DNA from: Bacillota bacterium
GTDB lineage: Bacteria; Bacillota; SHA-98; UBA4971
Direction: 5' to 3'
DNA: 33,692 nt
Assembly: GCA_029551185.1 (NCBI GenBank)
Contig: JAKPFY010000143.1
Span: forward strand, 1 to 33,692
Shown piece after piece: positions 1 through 7,744 of this stretch. A model generated the notes under the pieces. It ran no database searches. It was not told the origin of the DNA and saw only the letters and a list, made by a program, of their open reading frames with translations. The stretch's first letter is position 1. The number at the start of each line of letters is the position of its first letter. The position numbers and the translations under genes were made by a program.

Positions 1-257
1 TATAGCTCCTTGGTCTTGGCAGTTTTCACCAAGGCGCCGTCATACGTTATCAGAGGCGCATCAATGTCTAACTCTTCCGCGAAAGGCACTGATGCCCGGA
101 ACATTCGTCCGGTCGCCAGTGTGACCATGCTTCCGGCATCCATGGCAGCATGTATAGCCTGCTTTGTTCTGTCACTTATCGTAAGATCGCTGCCAATCAA
201 GGTGTAATCTATGTCAATGGCTATCAACTTAATTCTTCCGGATCCTGCAATTGTCAC
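1..257 (-). CDS. Cof-type HAD-superfamily hydrolase, N-terminal part (cut by window edge)
   Basis: The reading frame is open through base 1, so only the first ~85 residues are present. The N-terminal KLIAIDIDYTL is HAD motif I (DxDxT) with the nucleophile and acid/base Asp pair; the usual Gly after the second Asp is Tyr here. LATGR is motif II (Thr/Ser phosphate binding), and the following LITYDGA is typical of the Cof subfamily (cap type C2B). Such enzymes dephosphorylate sugar phosphates or cofactors in the cytosol; the substrate cannot be told. The start is uncertain: GTG at 257 shares one base with the stop of the upstream gene, while a TTG at 227 has a better spaced GGAAG. I prefer 257 because the shorter form would cut into the first beta strand. 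It is the last visible gene of the DUF2089 operon. Confidence 0.8.
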   Translation of the reverse strand, partial: MTIAGSGRIKLIAIDIDYTLIGSDLTISDRTKQAIHAAMDAGSMVTLATGRMFRASVPFAEELDIDAPLITYDGALVKTAKTKEL

Positions 258-616
258 TAATCTTGCACCACCCAGCTTATAATGCTACTTCCTATTGAGA
301 GGAGGATTGACGCCAGCACGGCAGGCCAGAACCCAGATATGTAAAAACCCTGCACTATCCTGGATACTATCCATAACATGAAGCCGTTTATTATGAACGT
401 AAATAGGCCTAACGTAAGCAGTTGTATAGGAAGAGACAAGATAATCAAAACCGGTCTTATGAGCGCGTTCACAATCCCTAGTATGAAAGCTGCCAAAAGC
501 GCTGGGACAAGTCCGGTTATTCTGACTGCAGGCCCCATGAAGTACGGAATAACAAGAAGGACGATGGCATTTGCCAACCATCTAATCATAAATGTCCGTT
601 TTCCCAATACCGGCAC
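257..616 (-). CDS. yvlD: YvlD-like small membrane protein (phage holin superfamily IV family)
   Basis: A protein of about 116-119 residues with four hydrophobic segments, a short loop containing NALIRP, and the C-terminal half rich in Gly/Ile/Ser. This matches the YvlD / 'mycobacterial 4 TMS phage holin' family (PF04020), a family of unknown function that accompanies YvlB-type proteins in Bacillus. It should sit in the cytoplasmic membrane. The GTG at 616 touches the AGGGGG motif directly, whereas the TTG at 607 (protein starting with GKRTF) lies 8 nt from it and is the likelier start. It is the only membrane protein visible in its operon, so it may anchor the soluble partners encoded upstream; that is inference. 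Confidence 0.8.
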   Translation of the reverse strand: MPVLGKRTFMIRWLANAIVLLVIPYFMGPAVRITGLVPALLAAFILGIVNALIRPVLIILSLPIQLLTLGLFTFIINGFMLWIVSRIVQGFYISGFWPAVLASILLSIGSSIISWVVQD

Positions 617-665: not shown

Positions 666-1043
666 CTACTCAATGTAGACTTCCACTTTTGCATCCTCAC
701 TGTCTACGTCAATGATTTTTCCCGAACTTGCTTCAGTAATAGTGGACAGGAGTTCATCAAGGTCAATGTTTTCATCCTTAAGCTGCTTGGATACGTCCTT
801 AGGAATGAACTTCATTGCGACCTTGGCAAGGGCAAGAGGTAAATTGACATTGACTCGCGTGTTATCCTCGGTATCAAATACGCGTATCCGAAGCATTCTC
901 CCGTGGCGGTCTCCTTGGCGTACAGGCGCTGACCGGTCTTCTTGGTTTGAGCTATCCAAAGCCTCCAGCAACTTCAGACCTTCATCCACAGAGATCTTTT
1001 CTTCCCGGACAAGATCGAGGATTTGCTTCTTTTCTTCAGACAT
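666..1043 (-). CDS. Small SHOCT-like domain protein of the YvlB-type operon
   Basis: A soluble protein of 125 residues. Residues ~1-30 (MSEEKKQILDLV...ISVDEGLKLLEAL) form the short two-helix SHOCT-like module that is also found at the start of the next upstream protein and at the end of the DUF2089 protein. Residues ~50-125 are a mixed alpha/beta domain (MLRIRVFDTEDNTRVNVNLP...KVEVYIE) often seen beside DUF4097 proteins; no function is known. An ATG 30 bases further upstream is open, but the ATG at 1043 is preceded by a strong AGGAGGG at 8 nt and begins exactly at the module, so I chose it. No signal peptide or membrane segment. Confidence 0.82.
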   Translation of the reverse strand: MSEEKKQILDLVREEKISVDEGLKLLEALDSSNQEDRSAPVRQGDRHGRMLRIRVFDTEDNTRVNVNLPLALAKVAMKFIPKDVSKQLKDENIDLDELLSTITEASSGKIIDVDSEDAKVEVYIE

Positions 1044-1087
1044 TAGGGTTTCCCTCCTCTTAAGTATATTCAAGACTCTAAGACGTA

Positions 1088-2344
1088 CTAACTGTGCATA
1101 ATACGCACCTGGCCGTTGGATGTCCGCGCTTTAATTGTCAGTCTGTCAGTGTTCTCAGAAAACCCTGATGTCTCAGCAACTACTTCCCTTCGTACAGTCT
1201 CTTCATCCCTCACTTGATAGGCTAGGTCCGGAAGATCTACCACGATGCGCCCCATGCTTGTTTTCGCTTCTATATGATAGCCCGCCTTGTCAGCGTCTGC
1301 AAGTTTCACTTCTATCGCTCCATTGGAGGTCTTTAGCTCATATTGGGAGTCCCCTGTTATCTTCCGGGGAATAACAGTTATCCCTCCGTTTGAAGTTTTC
1401 GCACTGATTCTCTGAGCGATTCCACTGACGTCGATTCTACCGTTGGAAGCTTCTAATTCCATTATGACTCCACGAGTATTATCCAGTTCTATCCGGCCGT
1501 TAGAAGTTTTTACTCTGATCATTTTGCACTGAAACTCACCCAAACCCACTCTGCCGTTTTGCGTTTCGAGATCCATGTCGTAGAGAAATTCCCTGGGCAG
1601 TTTCACATCGAGAGACGCGCCTGAGAGGGCTTTCCCATGACTAACCTTAATCTCGAGGGAATTATCAGTTGCTTCATATTTCAGAAGCTCTTCCAAAACT
1701 GCTTTGGCTGTTTCGCAATCGTTTGTCCGCCCCTCTGCAGCAGGCGTCACATGGGCTGTCGTTTTGACGCGGAAGCCGGGTTCGTCCCATGGTTCAACTG
1801 CAATGCTGCCATTTTGCGTGATAAGCGCTACGTCAATCTCCTTGCCGGACTCGCCCGCAAGACTCCCCTCTATAACCTTCTCCACCCTAATGCTAGGGGA
1901 AAACATACGTTGGAACGGCTCAACAATGGCTTTTGACCAGCGTGCCCTTGAAGCATCTTCATCATCAGACTCAACACGTATCTTACGACCTCTTACTTCT
2001 TGCTGTACACGGTCAATAGCTTGATCAGTGCTCTTTACCGCGCTCTCTACAGTCTCTCGGATCTTCTCCGCCAGGTTCTCAAAGGCCTCTCGATCCACCA
2101 CATCAACAAGACCTGAAAGCTTATCCACCAACCCTTTGATTTCTGCCACGCCAGGCACTTTTGAAGAAGGCGTTGGCTTTGATTCCTCAGACTTCTCATC
2201 GTCACCCTCGGGAGTCTCGAAGGATTCTTCAGGAATGCGGAGTCCCACGGCATCATCAATGGCTTCAATCAGCGATGAAGCCTGCTCTGAAGTAATCTTG
2301 CCCTCCTCCAGCATTTTCAGGATCATCATAACTTCTTCACGCAT
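1088..2344 (-). CDS. yvlB: DUF4097 (YvlB-like) beta-repeat protein with N-terminal SHOCT-like module
   Basis: A protein of 418 residues. Residues 1-30 are a SHOCT-like helical hairpin (ILKMLEEGKITSEQASSLIEAI). An acidic linker and an amphipathic helical segment (~60-120) follow. The C-terminal ~250 residues are DUF4097, a putative adhesin-like beta-solenoid: short rungs carrying TQNG or TSNG recur at least seven times (TQNGRVGL, TSNGRIEL, ASNGRIDV, TSNGGITV, TSNGAIEV, TSMGRIVV, TSNGQVRI). There is no signal peptide or membrane segment, so despite the 'adhesin' label it looks cytosolic. The ATG at 2344 has AAGGAGGGG at 6 nt. In Bacillus the homologue YvlB sits in an envelope-stress-associated operon; the molecular role is unknown. 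Confidence 0.85.
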   Translation of the reverse strand: MREEVMMILKMLEEGKITSEQASSLIEAIDDAVGLRIPEESFETPEGDDEKSEESKPTPSSKVPGVAEIKGLVDKLSGLVDVVDREAFENLAEKIRETVESAVKSTDQAIDRVQQEVRGRKIRVESDDEDASRARWSKAIVEPFQRMFSPSIRVEKVIEGSLAGESGKEIDVALITQNGSIAVEPWDEPGFRVKTTAHVTPAAEGRTNDCETAKAVLEELLKYEATDNSLEIKVSHGKALSGASLDVKLPREFLYDMDLETQNGRVGLGEFQCKMIRVKTSNGRIELDNTRGVIMELEASNGRIDVSGIAQRISAKTSNGGITVIPRKITGDSQYELKTSNGAIEVKLADADKAGYHIEAKTSMGRIVVDLPDLAYQVRDEETVRREVVAETSGFSENTDRLTIKARTSNGQVRIMHS

Positions 2345-2375
2345 AATACGCCCCTCCTTGCAACGTGCGTCTCGC

Positions 2376-2759
2376 TTACTTTTGCTTCAGAAGCTTTACA
2401 GCTTCATCCGCGCTAAGTTCTCCCTTAGCAAGAGAATCCAGGATTTCCTTACGCCTACCCGCAACTTCGGCCTCATCTTCCTTATCACGTTCCACCGGGA
2501 AACCAAGTGCCCCAATGACTGTATCGAGACGTCCTCGGACTGTAGGATAGGAGATCCCGAGCTCCCTCTCGACTTCCTTTATGTTCCCACGGCACCTAAT
2601 GAATGTTGACACAAAATCCCTTTGCTCATCAGTCATCTGACAGAACTTGCATGTTTCAAAGTGCCCACTGATTGAAGTGTCACACCTGGGGCAAGAAAGT
2701 TCCGTAACTTCCAGCGATTCCCCACAGACAGGACACCTGCCAAGAGCTTTACGCTTCAT
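2376..2759 (-). CDS. DUF2089 protein: zinc ribbon, HTH and SHOCT-like tail (putative operon regulator)
   Basis: A protein of 127 residues. Residues 9-26 form a zinc ribbon (CPVC...CPRC) and a further CKFC lies at 37-40. Residues ~55-95 are the diagnostic DUF2089 helix-turn-helix (GNIKEVERELGISYPTVRGRL). Residues ~100-127 (RRKEILDSLAKGELSADEAVKLLKQ) are a SHOCT-like module shared with the two downstream proteins. DUF2089 proteins are thought to bind DNA. As first gene of the operon, directly behind a cluster of palindromes, it is a good candidate autoregulator (inference). The ATG at 2759 has AAGGGGG at 7 nt. Confidence 0.88.
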   Translation of the reverse strand: MKRKALGRCPVCGESLEVTELSCPRCDTSISGHFETCKFCQMTDEQRDFVSTFIRCRGNIKEVERELGISYPTVRGRLDTVIGALGFPVERDKEDEAEVAGRRKEILDSLAKGELSADEAVKLLKQK

Positions 2760-2776
2760 ATCGCTGCCCCCTTATT

Positions 2777-2809
2777 AATCATGTTGATTATCATATTGAT
2801 AATATCAAT
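2777..2809. promoter_or_regulatory. Cluster of overlapping palindromes, putative operator of the DUF2089 operon
   Basis: Overlapping perfect inverted repeats built from ATCA/TGAT half-sites: 2777-2789 (5-3-5), 2785-2793 (4-1-4), 2788-2802 (6-3-6) and 2795-2809 (7-1-7). They lie just downstream of the predicted transcription start and upstream of the DUF2089 ribosome binding site, as expected for a repressor or autoregulator site. The binding protein is not known; the HTH protein encoded next is the obvious candidate. Confidence 0.6.
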
Positions 2810-2821
2810 CCATGCATTAAT

Positions 2822-2851
2822 ATTATAAAGCCCGCCTCAAAAGAATGTCAA
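2822..2851 (-). promoter_or_regulatory. Sigma-A promoter of the DUF2089 operon
   Basis: Read on the minus strand: TTGACA (2846-2851), an 18-bp spacer, TATAAT (2822-2827). Both hexamers match consensus exactly. Predicted start of transcription is near 2815, giving a ~55-nt leader that contains the palindrome cluster. Confidence 0.8.
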
Positions 2852-3038: not shown

Positions 3039-4916
3039 TCAATTTTCTAAGATAGGAGGCAAAATAACATCTGTGTCGGATGCCAGGGCTTCCTTGAGCC
3101 GTTCCGCCAGCTTGTGGTTTATTCCCGGAACACTCGCAATTTCGTCTATGCTTGCCGCGCGTATGCCTTTCACTGACCCAAACGTCGTAAGAAGAGCTTG
3201 AAGTCGTTTCTTACCGATACCCGGAATTTCTTCAAGGGCTGACAGAGTGGATCTTTTCGTCCTCAGCTGTCTATGGTATGAGACTGCGAATCTATGCGCC
3301 TCATCACGGATATGCCTGAGAAGGAGAAGGGCTTTGGAATCCTCGGGGAGAGCAATAGGTTGTTCTTGGCCTTCAACAAAAATCAGTTCGTGAGATTCTG
3401 CAAGACTGATAACCGGAATATTTTGCACGCCCAATTCTGAAAGCGCCTTAAGTCCTGCATTAAGCTGACCCTTGCCCCCGTCAATAATAATTAAATCAGG
3501 CAACTGCTTTTCTTTCTGATCCTGCTTTAGAAGTCTCCTATAGCGCCTGGAAACTACCTCATGCATCATGGCATAATCGTCTTGACCTTCCACCGTCTTA
3601 ATCTTAAAACGCCGGTAAGAAGATTTCTCGGGTTGTCCGCGTTCAAATACTACCATACTGCCGACAGCACAAGTCCCCTGGATGGTTGATATGTCAAAGG
3701 CTTCGATTCTCCTGGGGAGTCCGGGAAGCTCCAACGCTTCCATAAGCTCAAGGAGTGCAGCATCCTTCAGCGCTGCATCTTGCATAGCTCGTGTTCTTGC
3801 TTCCTCCAAACTGAGTTTTGCGTTATCCGTCGCCATGCTCTGAAGATGCTTTTTGTCGCCTCGCTGCGGAACATGAATACTGACCTTGCGACCTTTTTTC
3901 TCCCTCAACCACATACTGATGGCGTCTTTATCATCGGGTTTAAGAGGAAGCAATATCTCATCAGGAATGAAAGCGGCCTCATAGTAGTACTGCTTAATAA
4001 AAGCGGTAAGAATCTCTGAGTCAGGGACATCATCGGCATTAGTCATGAAGAAGCGTTCGCGTCCCATGAGTTTCCCGGAACGAACAAAGAATACCTGAAC
4101 ACATACATCAGCCTCGTCCCGAAAATAGCCGACTACATCAATATCACTGCGTGATGCCAGGACTATCTTCTGCTTTTCAGTTACGCGTTCGATAGCTCTG
4201 ACAGCGTCCCTGATAGACGCTGCCCTCTCAAAATTAAGAGAGTCTGAGGCTGCTTGCATCTCTTTTTTCATAGCACGTATTAACTGATCTTGACGGCCTT
4301 CCAGAAAAAGAATGATCTGGTTTACGAGCTCCATGTACGCTTCCTTGGATATCCTTCCCGAGCACGGAGAAAGGCATTTCTTTATATGGTAGTTGAGGCA
4401 TGGGCGCATCTTTTGCAAATGTTCTTCAGATATTTTCTTCGAGCAGCTCCGTACAGGGAAAAAACGCTTCAAGAAGCGAAGTGTCTCACGCATTGCCCCG
4501 ACATCGGCATACGGCCCGAAGTAACGGCTGCCGTCTTGTTCAACCCTTCTGGTCACGATAACCCTGGGAAATTCGTCCTGCAGCGTAATCTTGATAAACG
4601 GGTAAGTCTTATCATCCCTCAATTGAACATTGAACCAAGGACGATGTTTCTTTATTAGATTATTCTCAAGGATTAAGGCTTCGACCTCAGAGTCCGTAAC
4701 AATGTACTCAAAATCACAGATACGGTCCACAAGTATTTGAGTGCGCTTAGGCAGCCCTGCAGGGGATTGAAAGTAGGAACGAACCCTGTTTCTCAGGGAT
4801 GAAGCTTTCCCGACATATATCACCTTGCCGGACGAGTCTTTCATTACGTATACTCCCGGCCTATCAGGCAGGTCTTTGACTCTTTCTGCGAGATTCGATT
4901 TCAGGTCAAAGCTCAT
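3039..4916 (-). CDS. uvrC: Excinuclease ABC subunit C
   Basis: UvrC makes both incisions around a lesion once UvrA has loaded UvrB. At 625 residues it has normal length. Visible parts: GIY-YIG nuclease (~14-95, with GVYVMKD...VIYVGKA), four cysteines at 158, 173, 181 and 185 that match the iron-sulfur cluster site known in UvrC, a UVR motif (~210-245) for UvrB contact, the RNase H-like C-terminal nuclease (~370-540, with [10 protein letters not shown] and IIDGGKGQ), and tandem helix-hairpin-helix motifs (~560-615, IPGIGKKR and VPGINHK). ATG at 4916 overlaps the uvrA stop as ATGA, so the two are translationally coupled. Confidence 0.97.
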
Positions 4917-7744
4917 CTGTAAAGCACCTTCCTGAGAAAATGTCCTGTATAAGACATTTCCGCTTCTGCAACTTCCTCAGGGGTTCCGCATGCCACAACC
5001 GTCCCTCCTCTTTCGCCGCCTTCAGGACCTAAGTCAATAATGTAATCTGCGGTCTTTATCACGTCGAGGTTATGCTCAATGACTAGAACGGTGTCGCCTG
5101 CATCTACAAGACGGTCCAGAACATCGAGCAATCTATGAATATCAGCGAAGTGAAGCCCGGTTGTGGGCTCATCCAGTATATAGAGAGTTCTGCCGTTACT
5201 GCGCCGGCTCAACTCCGTGGCGAGTTTGACTCTCTGCGCTTCGCCGCCGGACAGAGTTGTAGCAGGCTGTCCCAGTTTTATATATCCAAGCCCGACATCA
5301 TACAGTGTTTCCAGCTTACGCTTGATACGAGGAATATTCCCGAAGAATTCAAGGGCTTCGTCCACCCTCATATCCAGCACGTCCGCTATGGTTTTCCCCT
5401 TATACTTGATCTCCAAGGTTTCTCTGTTATATCGTTTCCCTCTGCATACCTCACACGGAACGTAAACATCAGGAAGGAAATGCATTTCAATCCTAATGAT
5501 CCCGTCACCGCGGCAAGCTTCACACCTGCCACCTTTTACATTAAAGCTAAACCTTCCCGGACGGTATCCTCGAGCCCTGGCTTCCGGGGTCAGGGCAAAA
5601 GTCTCTCTGATGATGTCAAAGGTGCCAGTGTATGTGGCAGGATTGGATCTTGGAGTCCTACCGATAGGTGATTGATCCACATTGATAACACGATCCAGAT
5701 GTTCAAGTCCGAAAACTCTATCGTGAGCCCCGGGTTTAGCTGATGCCCTGTTCAAATCGTGGGAGAGCCTCTTATATAGGATCTCATTTACCAGCGTGCT
5801 TTTGCCTGAACCTGAAACGCCGGTTACACACAAAAACATGCCAAGGGGAATCTCTACGTCAATTCCCTTAAGATTATGCTCTCTTGCCCCTTTAATCAAC
5901 AGGGATTTTCCATTTGGCAAACGACGTTTGGACGGGACAGGAATCTTCTCTTTTCCGGACAGGTAAACCCCGGTCAACGAGTCATCACATGAGATTATGT
6001 CATCAATGGTTCCTTGGGCTACTATATGTCCGCCTTCCGCACCTGCGCCCGGACCCACATCAATAATGTGATCTGCGGATCTGATTGTCTCCTCGTCATG
6101 CTCGACCACGATCACGGTATTGCCTAAATCGCGGAGGTTCTTTAAGGTGCTTATGAGGCGCTTATTATCGCGTTGGTGGAGTCCTATGCTGGGTTCATCA
6201 AGTATATAGAGCACCCCGACAAGGCAGGACCCGATCTGAGTAGCCAACCTTATGCGTTGCGCCTCTCCGCCTGCCAGAGTGCAGGCAGGCCTGTCAAGGG
6301 TAAGGTAATCCAGCCCGACGTTGACCAAAAAACCAAGACGCTCCCGAATCTCCTTCAGAACTTGTCCTGCAATGAGAGTTTCCCGATAAGAGATCTCCAG
6401 GCTTTCAAAAAAATCACAAGCCTCTTGACATGATAAGGCTGTAACCTCCATTATTGACTTGCCTCCCACTGTTACGGCAAGGCTTTCCGGTCTAAGCCTT
6501 GCGCCGCCGCATGCGGGACAAGTCCTTGTTGTTATGAAGTCCTCAATTTCTTCCCGTATTCCCTGCGAACGAACCTCCCTATACTTGCGCTCCAAGTACG
6601 GTATCACACCTTCATAGCTTGTTTCCCGTGATACGTAATTACCTGAGAAGTCATGATATCTGAACCGAAACTTCTCCCTCCCCGCCCCATAAAGCAAGAT
6701 CTTCAGGTGCTCCGGAGACAATCTGTTTACCGGCACAGTCGGGTCAATTCCAAAGCGTTCGCATACCTTTATAACTCTGTTTGCAAAGAAGTCGCTGCGC
6801 GTCCCTTCAAAGGATCTTCGCCAAGGGACCAATGCGCCTTCCATTATGCTTATGTCAGTATCTAAAACAAGCTCCGGATCGATTTCCTCTTTTGTTCCCA
6901 GTCCGGCACATTCAGGACACGCGCCATACGGGCTGTTGAAGGAAAACATCCTCGGAGTAAGCTCTTCAAAACTGATTCCGCACTCAATACATGCAAAGTT
7001 CTCACTGAAGATCAGGTCTTCCTTATCCGCCACGTTGATTACGGCAGTTCCGCCGCTCTGCCTCATAGCAAGCTCTATTGAGTCAGCTAAACGTTGTTCT
7101 ATTCCTTCACGGATTACCAGACGATCAACGACTATCTCGATAGTATGGGTTTTGTATCTGTCCAACAAGATATCCTCATCAACCCGACGAACCTCGCCAT
7201 TGACTCTGACCCTGACAAATCCGTCTTTTCTGATATCCTCCAGGATTTTCTTGTGTTCACCTTTCTTGCCTCGAATAACAGGGGCGAGCACCTGCACCCT
7301 TGCACCTTCACCAAGGGCAATCACTTGATCCACAACTTGCTCCACTGTCTGCTGAGTAATGGGCAACCCGCATTTTGGGCAATGAGGCTTACCTATTCTC
7401 GCAAATAGCAGCCTCAAGTAGTCGTATATTTCCGTTACTGTCCCTACTGTAGATCTGGGATTTCTGCTCCCGCTCTTTTGGTCAATAGCTATGGCAGGAG
7501 AAAGGCCTTCGATGTAATCTACATCAGGCTTGTCCATTTGGCCAAGGAATTGACGGGCATAAGCTGAGAGAGATTCAACATAGCGCCTCTGGCCTTCAGC
7601 ATAGATTGTATCAAATGCCAAAGACGATTTCCCCGAACCGCTAATCCCGGTGATAACAACAAGCTTGTCTCTGGGGATCCTGACATCTATGTTTTTCAGG
7701 TTGTGCTGTCTGGCACCCTTGACCACTATGAAATCTTTACTCAA
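4913..7744 (-). CDS. uvrA: Excinuclease ABC subunit A
   Basis: DNA damage sensor of nucleotide excision repair, an ABC-type ATPase dimer. 943 residues, full length. First ATPase: Walker A GISGSGKS (33-40) and signature LAGGEAQR. Second ATPase: Walker A GVSGSGKS and signature LSGGEAQR. CxxC pairs for zinc are present (CPKC, CIEC/CPEC, CPAC, CEAC/CEVC). The [14 protein letters not shown] and [15 protein letters not shown] motifs are diagnostic. Translation begins at TTG (7742-7744), with GGAGGAG 7 nt upstream. It lies 24 bp after uvrB and overlaps uvrC by 4 bp. Confidence 0.98.

Follow-up and report, generated by a model that had tools for sequence, protein, structure and literature searches.

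In a 33,692-nucleotide stretch of a Bacillota bacterium genome (assembly GCA_029551185.1, contig JAKPFY010000143.1; "the window" below is this whole stretch), the minus strand carries an operon in the order DUF2089 regulator, DUF4097 (Toastrack) protein, small protein, YvlD-like membrane protein and then the start of a HAD hydrolase (Table 1). The first three of these proteins have in common a helical hairpin of 24-30 residues, which lies at the C-terminus of DUF2089 and at the N-terminus of both the Toastrack protein and the small protein; the remainder of the small protein is an unnamed domain, here called SB. Upstream of the DUF2089 gene, three palindromic sites stand in a row that runs from the -10 hexamer of a sigma-A-type promoter to 14 bp before the start codon.

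The shared hairpin is of a kind already catalogued, the Pfam family PF22746 (SHOCT-like_DUF2089-C, curated cut-off 27 bits), and both the module and its DUF2089/Toastrack context are already published in passages of Ravi et al. (2024; PMC11237479); the idea that the hairpins bring the proteins together as hetero-oligomers is the addition of an earlier, sequence-only reading of this DNA. The Toastrack and small proteins belong to PF22746 with 38.0 and 42.7 bits, respectively; the DUF2089 copy, at 22.6 bits, falls below the cut-off when scored alone, and 28 of 36 DUF2089 relatives match the family at E ≤ 0.01. All 41 aligned relatives of the small protein match it as well. When the genome (2.66 Mb, 81% complete) is scanned with PF22746, the three best matches are the three operon modules (E 1.2e-10, 3.9e-10 and 5.4e-5) and the next has an E-value of 0.02, while family-against-family alignment places the DUF2089 tail with the Toastrack module at 97.8% (E 1.2e-12) and with the small-protein module at 97.7% (E 1.8e-12). 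The AlphaFold models have a confident helical hairpin at residues 3-13 and 19-37 of the small protein (mean pLDDT 92-98 over residues 1-30) and at residues 93-112 and 117-125 of DUF2089 (mean pLDDT 92-96 over residues 101-120). The claim that three neighbouring proteins share one short helical module is thus upheld by the genome-wide ranking and the family alignments. The classic SHOCT family, PF09851, has no match at E ≤ 1 to the Toastrack or small protein and none among the best 25 of 27 rows for DUF2089. Among solved structures, the profile of the module matches best the N-terminus of LarB (PDB 8soq/7mj0, E 0.0037), and the N-terminal hairpin of PDB 8kem, a weak profile match (E 0.64), superposes at 1.2 Å over 33 residues (Z 3.1).

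Table 1. Features of the DUF2089 operon and its surroundings in the window.
Feature	Position	Strand	Remarks
YvlD-like membrane protein (Phage_holin_4_2)	257..616	-	PF04020, 114.7 bits
Small protein, SHOCT-like module plus SB domain	666..1043	-	PF22746, 42.7 bits; predicted model
SHOCT-like module of small protein	948..1037	-	aa 3-32; genome scan
Toastrack (DUF4097) protein with N-terminal SHOCT-like module	1088..2344	-	PF22746, 38.0 bits; PF13349, 39.2 bits
SHOCT-like module of Toastrack protein	2255..2338	-	aa 3-30; genome scan
DUF2089 regulator	2376..2759	-	PF22747, PF09862, PF22746; zinc ribbon aa 9-40, helix-turn-helix aa 43-87, C-terminal SHOCT-like module aa 103-126
SHOCT-like module, regulator class	2382..2453	-	DUF2089 aa 103-126; 25.0 bits in genome scan, below cut-off
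Candidate operator site 3, ATCAACATGATTAAT	2774..2788	-	8.3 bits, weaker; 21 bp from site 2
Candidate operator site 2, ATTGATATTATCAAT	2795..2809	-	17.7 bits; perfect palindrome with central base
Candidate operator site 1, CTTTATAATATTAAT	2816..2830	-	11.8 bits; overlaps -10 hexamer; 21 bp from site 2
Sigma-A-type promoter, TTGACA-18-TATAAT	2822..2851	-	12/12 matches
uvrC and uvrA, conserved upstream neighbours	3039..7744	-

The module travels with the operon. Of 398 genomes sampled from the phylum, 147 have the helix-turn-helix (HTH) of DUF2089 at E ≤ 1e-4, and our locus sample consists of 140 stretches around such matches, 80 loci among those on named genome contigs and the window (221 together, 191 after removal of near-duplicates), with neighbours counted on the same strand within 4.5 kb of DUF2089. 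Both DUF2089 and a neighbour carry the module in 164 of the 191 loci, DUF2089 only in 6, the neighbour only in 2 and neither in 19 (Fisher p 4.9e-19, not corrected for ancestry); put differently, 164 of the 170 loci with a module-bearing DUF2089 also have a neighbour that carries the module. Three of the six DUF2089-only loci lie where a contig ends, in two more the module of an SB neighbour was truncated or went undetected, and L070 is the genuine exception; of the two neighbour-only loci one contains unknown bases and the other a split gene. The 19 loci with neither include zinc-less DUF2089 paralogues, fusions, L164, the short zinc-ribbon proteins of L136 and L144, and L057 and L066, in which a degenerate tail is visible by eye.

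Among the 142 loci that have 4.5 kb or more of downstream sequence, the partner is a Toastrack protein only in 28, an SB protein only in 60, both in 53 and neither in one: the partner domain is interchangeable while the module stays. A YvlD-like protein, cast by the sequence-only reading as the envelope anchor, is not a necessary one, since it follows in only 66 of these 142 loci. Two modules are found in 102 of the 170 loci, three in 50 and five in eight, and these five-module operons (L044, L047, L049, L056, L073, L103, L113, L129) consist of DUF2089, two Toastrack proteins, with the hairpin N-terminal in one and C-terminal in the other, and two SB proteins. Genomes with module proteins and no DUF2089 match also exist; L332 and L333 have two hairpin proteins and YvlD beside uvrA without an adjacent DUF2089.

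A second regularity lies in the upstream DNA, where a 15-bp palindrome, ATTRATA-N-TATYAAT, is enriched and repeated in tandem at exact 21-bp steps. Perfect palindromes number 18 in 167 loci against 0.10 expected from shuffles, and those with at most one mismatch 54 against 1.35, the motif having been chosen on the same data. In a random split test, with relatives falling on both sides, a model trained on 83 loci scores at least 12 in 62 of 84 held-out upstream regions; this score is reached by 5.0% of shuffles and, upstream of other genes, by 4.4% of 298 regions. An extra set of 31 loci from one order, not used before and with relatives of that order in the first set, gives 29 that score at least 12 and 27 in which a second site lies at exactly 21 bp (shuffles 0.0000); the set excludes ten duplicates and also L260, which has fewer than 120 upstream bases, a best score of 6.3 and no pair. 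A site scoring at least 10 is present in 138 of the 167 loci, and around the best one further sites occur 106 times at exactly 21 bp (0.5 expected), 29 times at 42 bp (0.4 expected) and 11 times at 62-63 bp (0.4 expected), such that 105 of the 138 loci have phased sites, with two to five sites per array.

The array is also near-unique to DUF2089 in the genomes searched. In the genome of the window, two places match the palindrome when one mismatch is allowed, and none match the reversed pattern; site 2 of this operon is the only perfect match to ATTRATANTATYAAT, and the other place is a one-mismatch single site (C202:8835) close to where its contig stops, with no gene visible beyond it. We also searched 26 genomes for a 34-bp tandem pattern. 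In each of the 22 selected because they carry the array at DUF2089, the pattern stands before that gene; in 21 of these genomes it has 4 other matches, as compared to 6 of the reversed pattern, and in the remaining one (G355) it has additional matches, most of them inside one tract of 21-bp repeats. Two of the four genomes without a DUF2089 match have the array, in G461 next to uvrC at the edge of a contig, at the place before which a DUF2089 gene would be expected to begin, and in G302 between ABC-transporter genes, and the other two have none. Collectively, the evidence is strong that the array is present at, and specific to, DUF2089 operons. The tandem pattern being no commoner elsewhere than its reversed control, we claim no target genes beyond the operon. 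Tandem patterns stand before similar ABC-type exporters at L365:2902-2958 (G302) and about position 4045 of L368 (G388), the latter below 8 bits, and could be a second target or chance. A second array (15.9 and 9.9 bits) at L367:2431-2466, in a genome with a DUF2089 operon (G249), lies upstream of a gene that by eye may encode a ferritin-like coat protein.

DUF2089 itself is the likely binder because the array lies at an HTH gene, the type of site follows the type of HTH and the motif is rare without DUF2089; as judged from these sequence patterns, it very probably binds the array. Among loci with zinc-less DUF2089 paralogues, 10 of 11 have TTTAATANTATTAAA-like sites paired at 21-22 bp (0.00 expected; L159, L160, L162, L163, L165-L167, L169, L177, L178 and L372 are the zinc-less loci), and the plasmid-borne zinc-less type has pairs in only 2 of 9. 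Module-bearing loci without an adjacent DUF2089 score below 9 in seven of eight cases, the exception being an 18.5-bit site (L334:5387-5401) at an unlinked second Toastrack gene with the module, in a genome (G311) that has its DUF2089 operon elsewhere. L136 and L144, zinc-ribbon DUF2089s without the tail from one genus, have one strong site and no 21-bp partner. The predicted HTH model is nearest to the DNA-binding domains of VraR, DosR and LiaR among solved folds (Z 7.1-7.7), with VraR as the best match (Z 7.7, root-mean-square deviation 1.9 over 53 residues, below the guide value of Z 8), and sigma region 4 and Fis score 6.2-6.7; passages of an earlier study match DUF2089 to 1je8 (NarL) by COMPASS (PMC2686095). 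That the array is instead bound by another regulator, or is no more than AT-rich promoter sequence, is very unlikely: the sites are indeed AT-rich, and our literature search, to the extent of the passages it covered, found no report of DUF2089 binding DNA or of a DNA target of DUF2089, but they are palindromic, exactly phased and near-unique at DUF2089, they vary with the DUF2089 class and the motif is absent from the Priestia and Listeria yvl loci.

The zinc-less loci have a layout of their own. A small hydrophobic protein follows the regulator where the neighbours are listed (L159, L162, L166), and passages on leaderless-bacteriocin clusters describe pairs of DUF2089 and membrane proteins (PMC10707071, PMC7332713, PMC9484092), that is, the same regulator/membrane-protein layout. 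L390, the only plasmid locus in which a bacteriocin gene can be seen, has no site pair. We considered whether the C-terminus of the zinc-less paralogues is a divergent module, as it looks alike by eye, and rejected this on a profile comparison probability under 1%.

The other parts of the locus invite comparison with known envelope-stress operons. DUF2089 belongs to PF09862 (HTH, 83.7 bits) and PF22747 (zinc ribbon, 55.1 bits), both above their cut-offs, with a pLDDT of 89 for the predicted model, and the Toastrack protein belongs to PF13349 by its residues 251-415, with 39.2 bits against a cut-off of 22.9. The SB half of the small protein has no Pfam match; its predicted topology is beta-beta-alpha-alpha-alpha-beta-beta, and neither Foldseek (best E 0.25) nor VIA (Z up to 3.4 for the SB part) returned an informative fold match. 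By sequence at E ≤ 1, solved structures yield none for the Toastrack protein and weak, unrelated-looking rows only for the small protein and DUF2089. A shorter second SB-like protein without the hairpin, after the hairpin-SB gene (L145 and L147-L150 by profile; L043, L335 and L338 by eye), suggests SB-SB pairing. By hydropathy, the YvlD-like protein is the only one of the four operon proteins with a strongly hydrophobic 19-residue stretch. In the 170 loci, uvrA and/or uvrC lie inside the fetched flank in 69, and a same-strand uvrC in 66.

Passages of Ravi et al. split DUF2089 into zinc-ribbon, HTH and SHOCT-like parts, assign SHOCT-like domains to Toastrack proteins, CAB15517.1 among them, and report a DUF2089/Toastrack context of four genes that they liken to the lia operon, with membrane anchoring proposed (PMC11237479). 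The window agrees with this context in the DUF2089 architecture, in the Toastrack partner and in the proposed carriage of a membrane signal to transcription, and differs from what those passages contain by the operator array, the SB protein and the co-occurrence count. With yvlABCD/liaXYZ of B. subtilis, Enterococcus and Listeria the window shares a Toastrack protein with an N-terminal SHOCT-like module and a YvlD/LiaZ holin-like protein, near uvrA. In Priestia megaterium, uvrA is followed by a small hypothetical protein, module-Toastrack, PspC, YvlD and hprK; in Listeria by module-Toastrack, PspC-Toastrack, YvlD and then, by eye, hprK; and in the window by uvrC, DUF2089, module-Toastrack, module-SB and YvlD. 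A PspC-domain gene, present in Priestia and Listeria, has no match among the five window proteins scanned, and uvrC intervenes after uvrA; we read the window as the same locus under different control, with its own DUF2089 regulator inside, PspC absent and the SB protein added. The LiaX model NF038025 matches the window's Toastrack protein only partially (55.6 bits against a cut-off of 350; 291 for the Listeria homologue and 173 for that of Priestia). Positions 2-105 of this model matched the small protein, which suggested that the small and Toastrack proteins are a split LiaX; this was ruled out, the match coming from the module half alone (positions 2-36) with the SB half unmatched.

In passages of the literature, liaXYZ is controlled by LiaR in enterococci and yvl is at least partly under sigma-W. 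LiaR/VraR-type response regulators, whose DNA-binding folds are those nearest to the predicted DUF2089 HTH and one of which controls the related locus, differ from DUF2089 in that a zinc ribbon and a SHOCT-like tail stand in place of the receiver domain. No receiver or kinase domain is among the profile matches listed for the five proteins scanned, which sets the locus outside two-component systems and fits the proposal of the sequence-only reading that it forms a signalling unit without a classical sensor kinase.

Our favoured explanation, held as moderately probable, is an envelope-stress operon of the yvl/liaXYZ type that is controlled, without a kinase, by a regulator it encodes; the hairpin tail of this regulator would couple it to the Toastrack and small proteins. 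From the shared module, its conservation with the operon and the near-unique array we infer that dimers of DUF2089, a protein with a zinc ribbon and a probably NarL/LuxR-like HTH, would line up on palindromic 15-bp sites spaced by exactly 21 bp, or two helical turns, across their own promoter and its surroundings. Repression is suggested because the array overlaps the -35 or -10 hexamer, and DUF2089 most likely represses its own operon; we regard autorepression as likely. The C-terminal hairpin would dock onto the sister hairpins of the Toastrack and/or the small SB protein, a coupling to which co-occurrence and interchangeable partners lend roughly even odds, and membrane stress would alter the DNA-bound assembly and thereby release the promoter. 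Envelope stress as the signal is suggested by analogy with the relatives. A more elaborate version, in which the row of dimers is cooperative, the tails dock to the oppositely charged hairpins of a Toastrack/SB scaffold at the membrane and the zinc-less paralogues follow the same operator logic with another tail and another membrane partner, is tentative; DUF2089 would then be a kinase-free counterpart of LiaR, with docking hairpins that add repressors to the phased array or strip them from it. NrdR may offer a parallel as a zinc-ribbon repressor with palindrome pairs at whole helical turns over its target promoter, although it differs from DUF2089 in its ATP-cone domain and its targets.

Several observations weigh against this explanation. 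The overlap with the promoter, seen in 74 of the 112 loci with a good promoter and site (-35 in 63, -10 in 19), lacks a random-placement control, and the -35 hexamer itself resembles a half site. There is no site scoring at least 10 in 29 of 167 loci and only a single site in 33 of 138, and the Z-scores of the HTH stay below 8. The array does not need the module, and it does not prove that the tails touch, because zinc-less paralogues without a recognizable tail also have site pairs; the one hint of such contact is the single strong site of the tailless L136 and L144, which belong to one genus. Among ten hand-picked genomes (nine from one set of matches, and G204), six have one PF22746 match only at E ≤ 0.01, namely G084, G228, G107, G169 and G204, with completeness of at least 98%, and G145 (79%); heterotypic pairing therefore cannot be obligatory. 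The passages of one study propose SHOCT in 2013 as an oligomerization domain and report that, in a first experiment by its discoverers, a classic SHOCT domain did not oligomerize (PMC3581485). In favour of the explanation, those of another report that B. subtilis YvlB contacts other Yvl proteins by two-hybrid (PMC9239133).

Co-variation of regulator and partner modules likewise does not go beyond shared ancestry. Module similarity is not higher within operons than between them. Partial distance correlations between regulator and partner modules with the HTH removed give z-values of 2.4 and 3.8, and the control pair of DUF2089 module and SB domain reaches 3.8, so the regulator-partner values are no higher; with the HTH and YvlD both removed, they are 1.1 for the small protein (71 loci) and -2.7 for the Toastrack protein (31 loci). 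Direct-coupling analysis makes pairs such as 9-19 and 2-23 prominent within one hairpin, as expected for an antiparallel hairpin, and between proteins the strongest coupling versus the shuffle maximum is 4.96 versus 4.87 for DUF2089-Toastrack (93 loci), 3.87 versus 4.24 for DUF2089-small protein (126 loci) and 3.48 versus 4.29 for Toastrack-small protein (60 loci). The mean of the top eight couplings exceeds the shuffle mean in all three pairs, but shuffling also destroys ancestry, and both the coupling and the distance tests have too few sequences to exclude an interface. The proposed hetero-oligomerization through the modules is thus partly supported: the co-occurrence of DUF2089 with module-bearing neighbours and the interchangeable partner domains speak for it, and the single-module genomes and the missing co-variation speak against it; the co-occurrence across genomes from which it could be judged likewise holds at most loci and breaks down in genomes with a single module.

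The charges of the modules can be read in more than one way. DUF2089 and Toastrack modules have opposite mean charges at column 1 (+0.68/-0.98; a gap in 60% of DUF2089 modules), column 11 (+0.59/-0.81), column 13 (-0.84/+0.93) and column 24 (+0.94/-0.55), and Toastrack and SB modules have the same charge pattern (r 0.95); the contrast resembles a specificity code that sets regulator modules apart from partner modules. We dropped the reversal as proof of heterotypic pairing, because charge without geometry fits heterotypic and separate homotypic pairing equally. In a homotypic arrangement, which we consider unlikely, DUF2089 tails would pair with one another to lock neighbouring dimers on the 21-bp array, the Toastrack and SB modules would pair among themselves, and the charge difference would keep the two classes apart. 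The pattern common to Toastrack and SB modules and distinct in the regulator class is consistent with this, as are the single-module genomes and the unpartnered sites of the tailless L136 and L144, but those two loci come from one genus, zinc-less paralogues have their site pairs without a recognizable module, and the co-occurrence of the DUF2089 module with module-bearing neighbours is left unexplained. It is similarly doubtful that the hairpins are membrane or lipid anchors to the inner leaflet, as Ravi et al. propose in the passages cited above and counter to docking, with the proteins meeting without module contact and the array serving plain DUF2089 autoregulation. In favour of anchoring, partner modules retain additional hydrophobic residues (M8, L22), some genomes have such modules by themselves, and the lack of inter-module co-variation beyond ancestry fits as well; however, the regulator module is less hydrophobic at those positions and differently charged, the three module proteins have no membrane-spanning stretch by hydropathy, which leaves anchoring to the hairpin alone, and tethering a DNA-binding array to the membrane would call for some way of releasing it.

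The operator array, its 21-bp phase, the SB protein as third partner and the putative charge code were not found in the passages covered by our literature search. DUF2089 is a widespread regulator family, and with a phased, near-unique operator, experiments can address directly which genes it targets, whether it binds cooperatively and how it is linked to envelope stress. The array also gives a defined assay for SHOCT-like modules, for which the passages searched offer proposals and no demonstrated function. If the docking explanation is true, these bacteria would run a Lia-like response without a histidine kinase.

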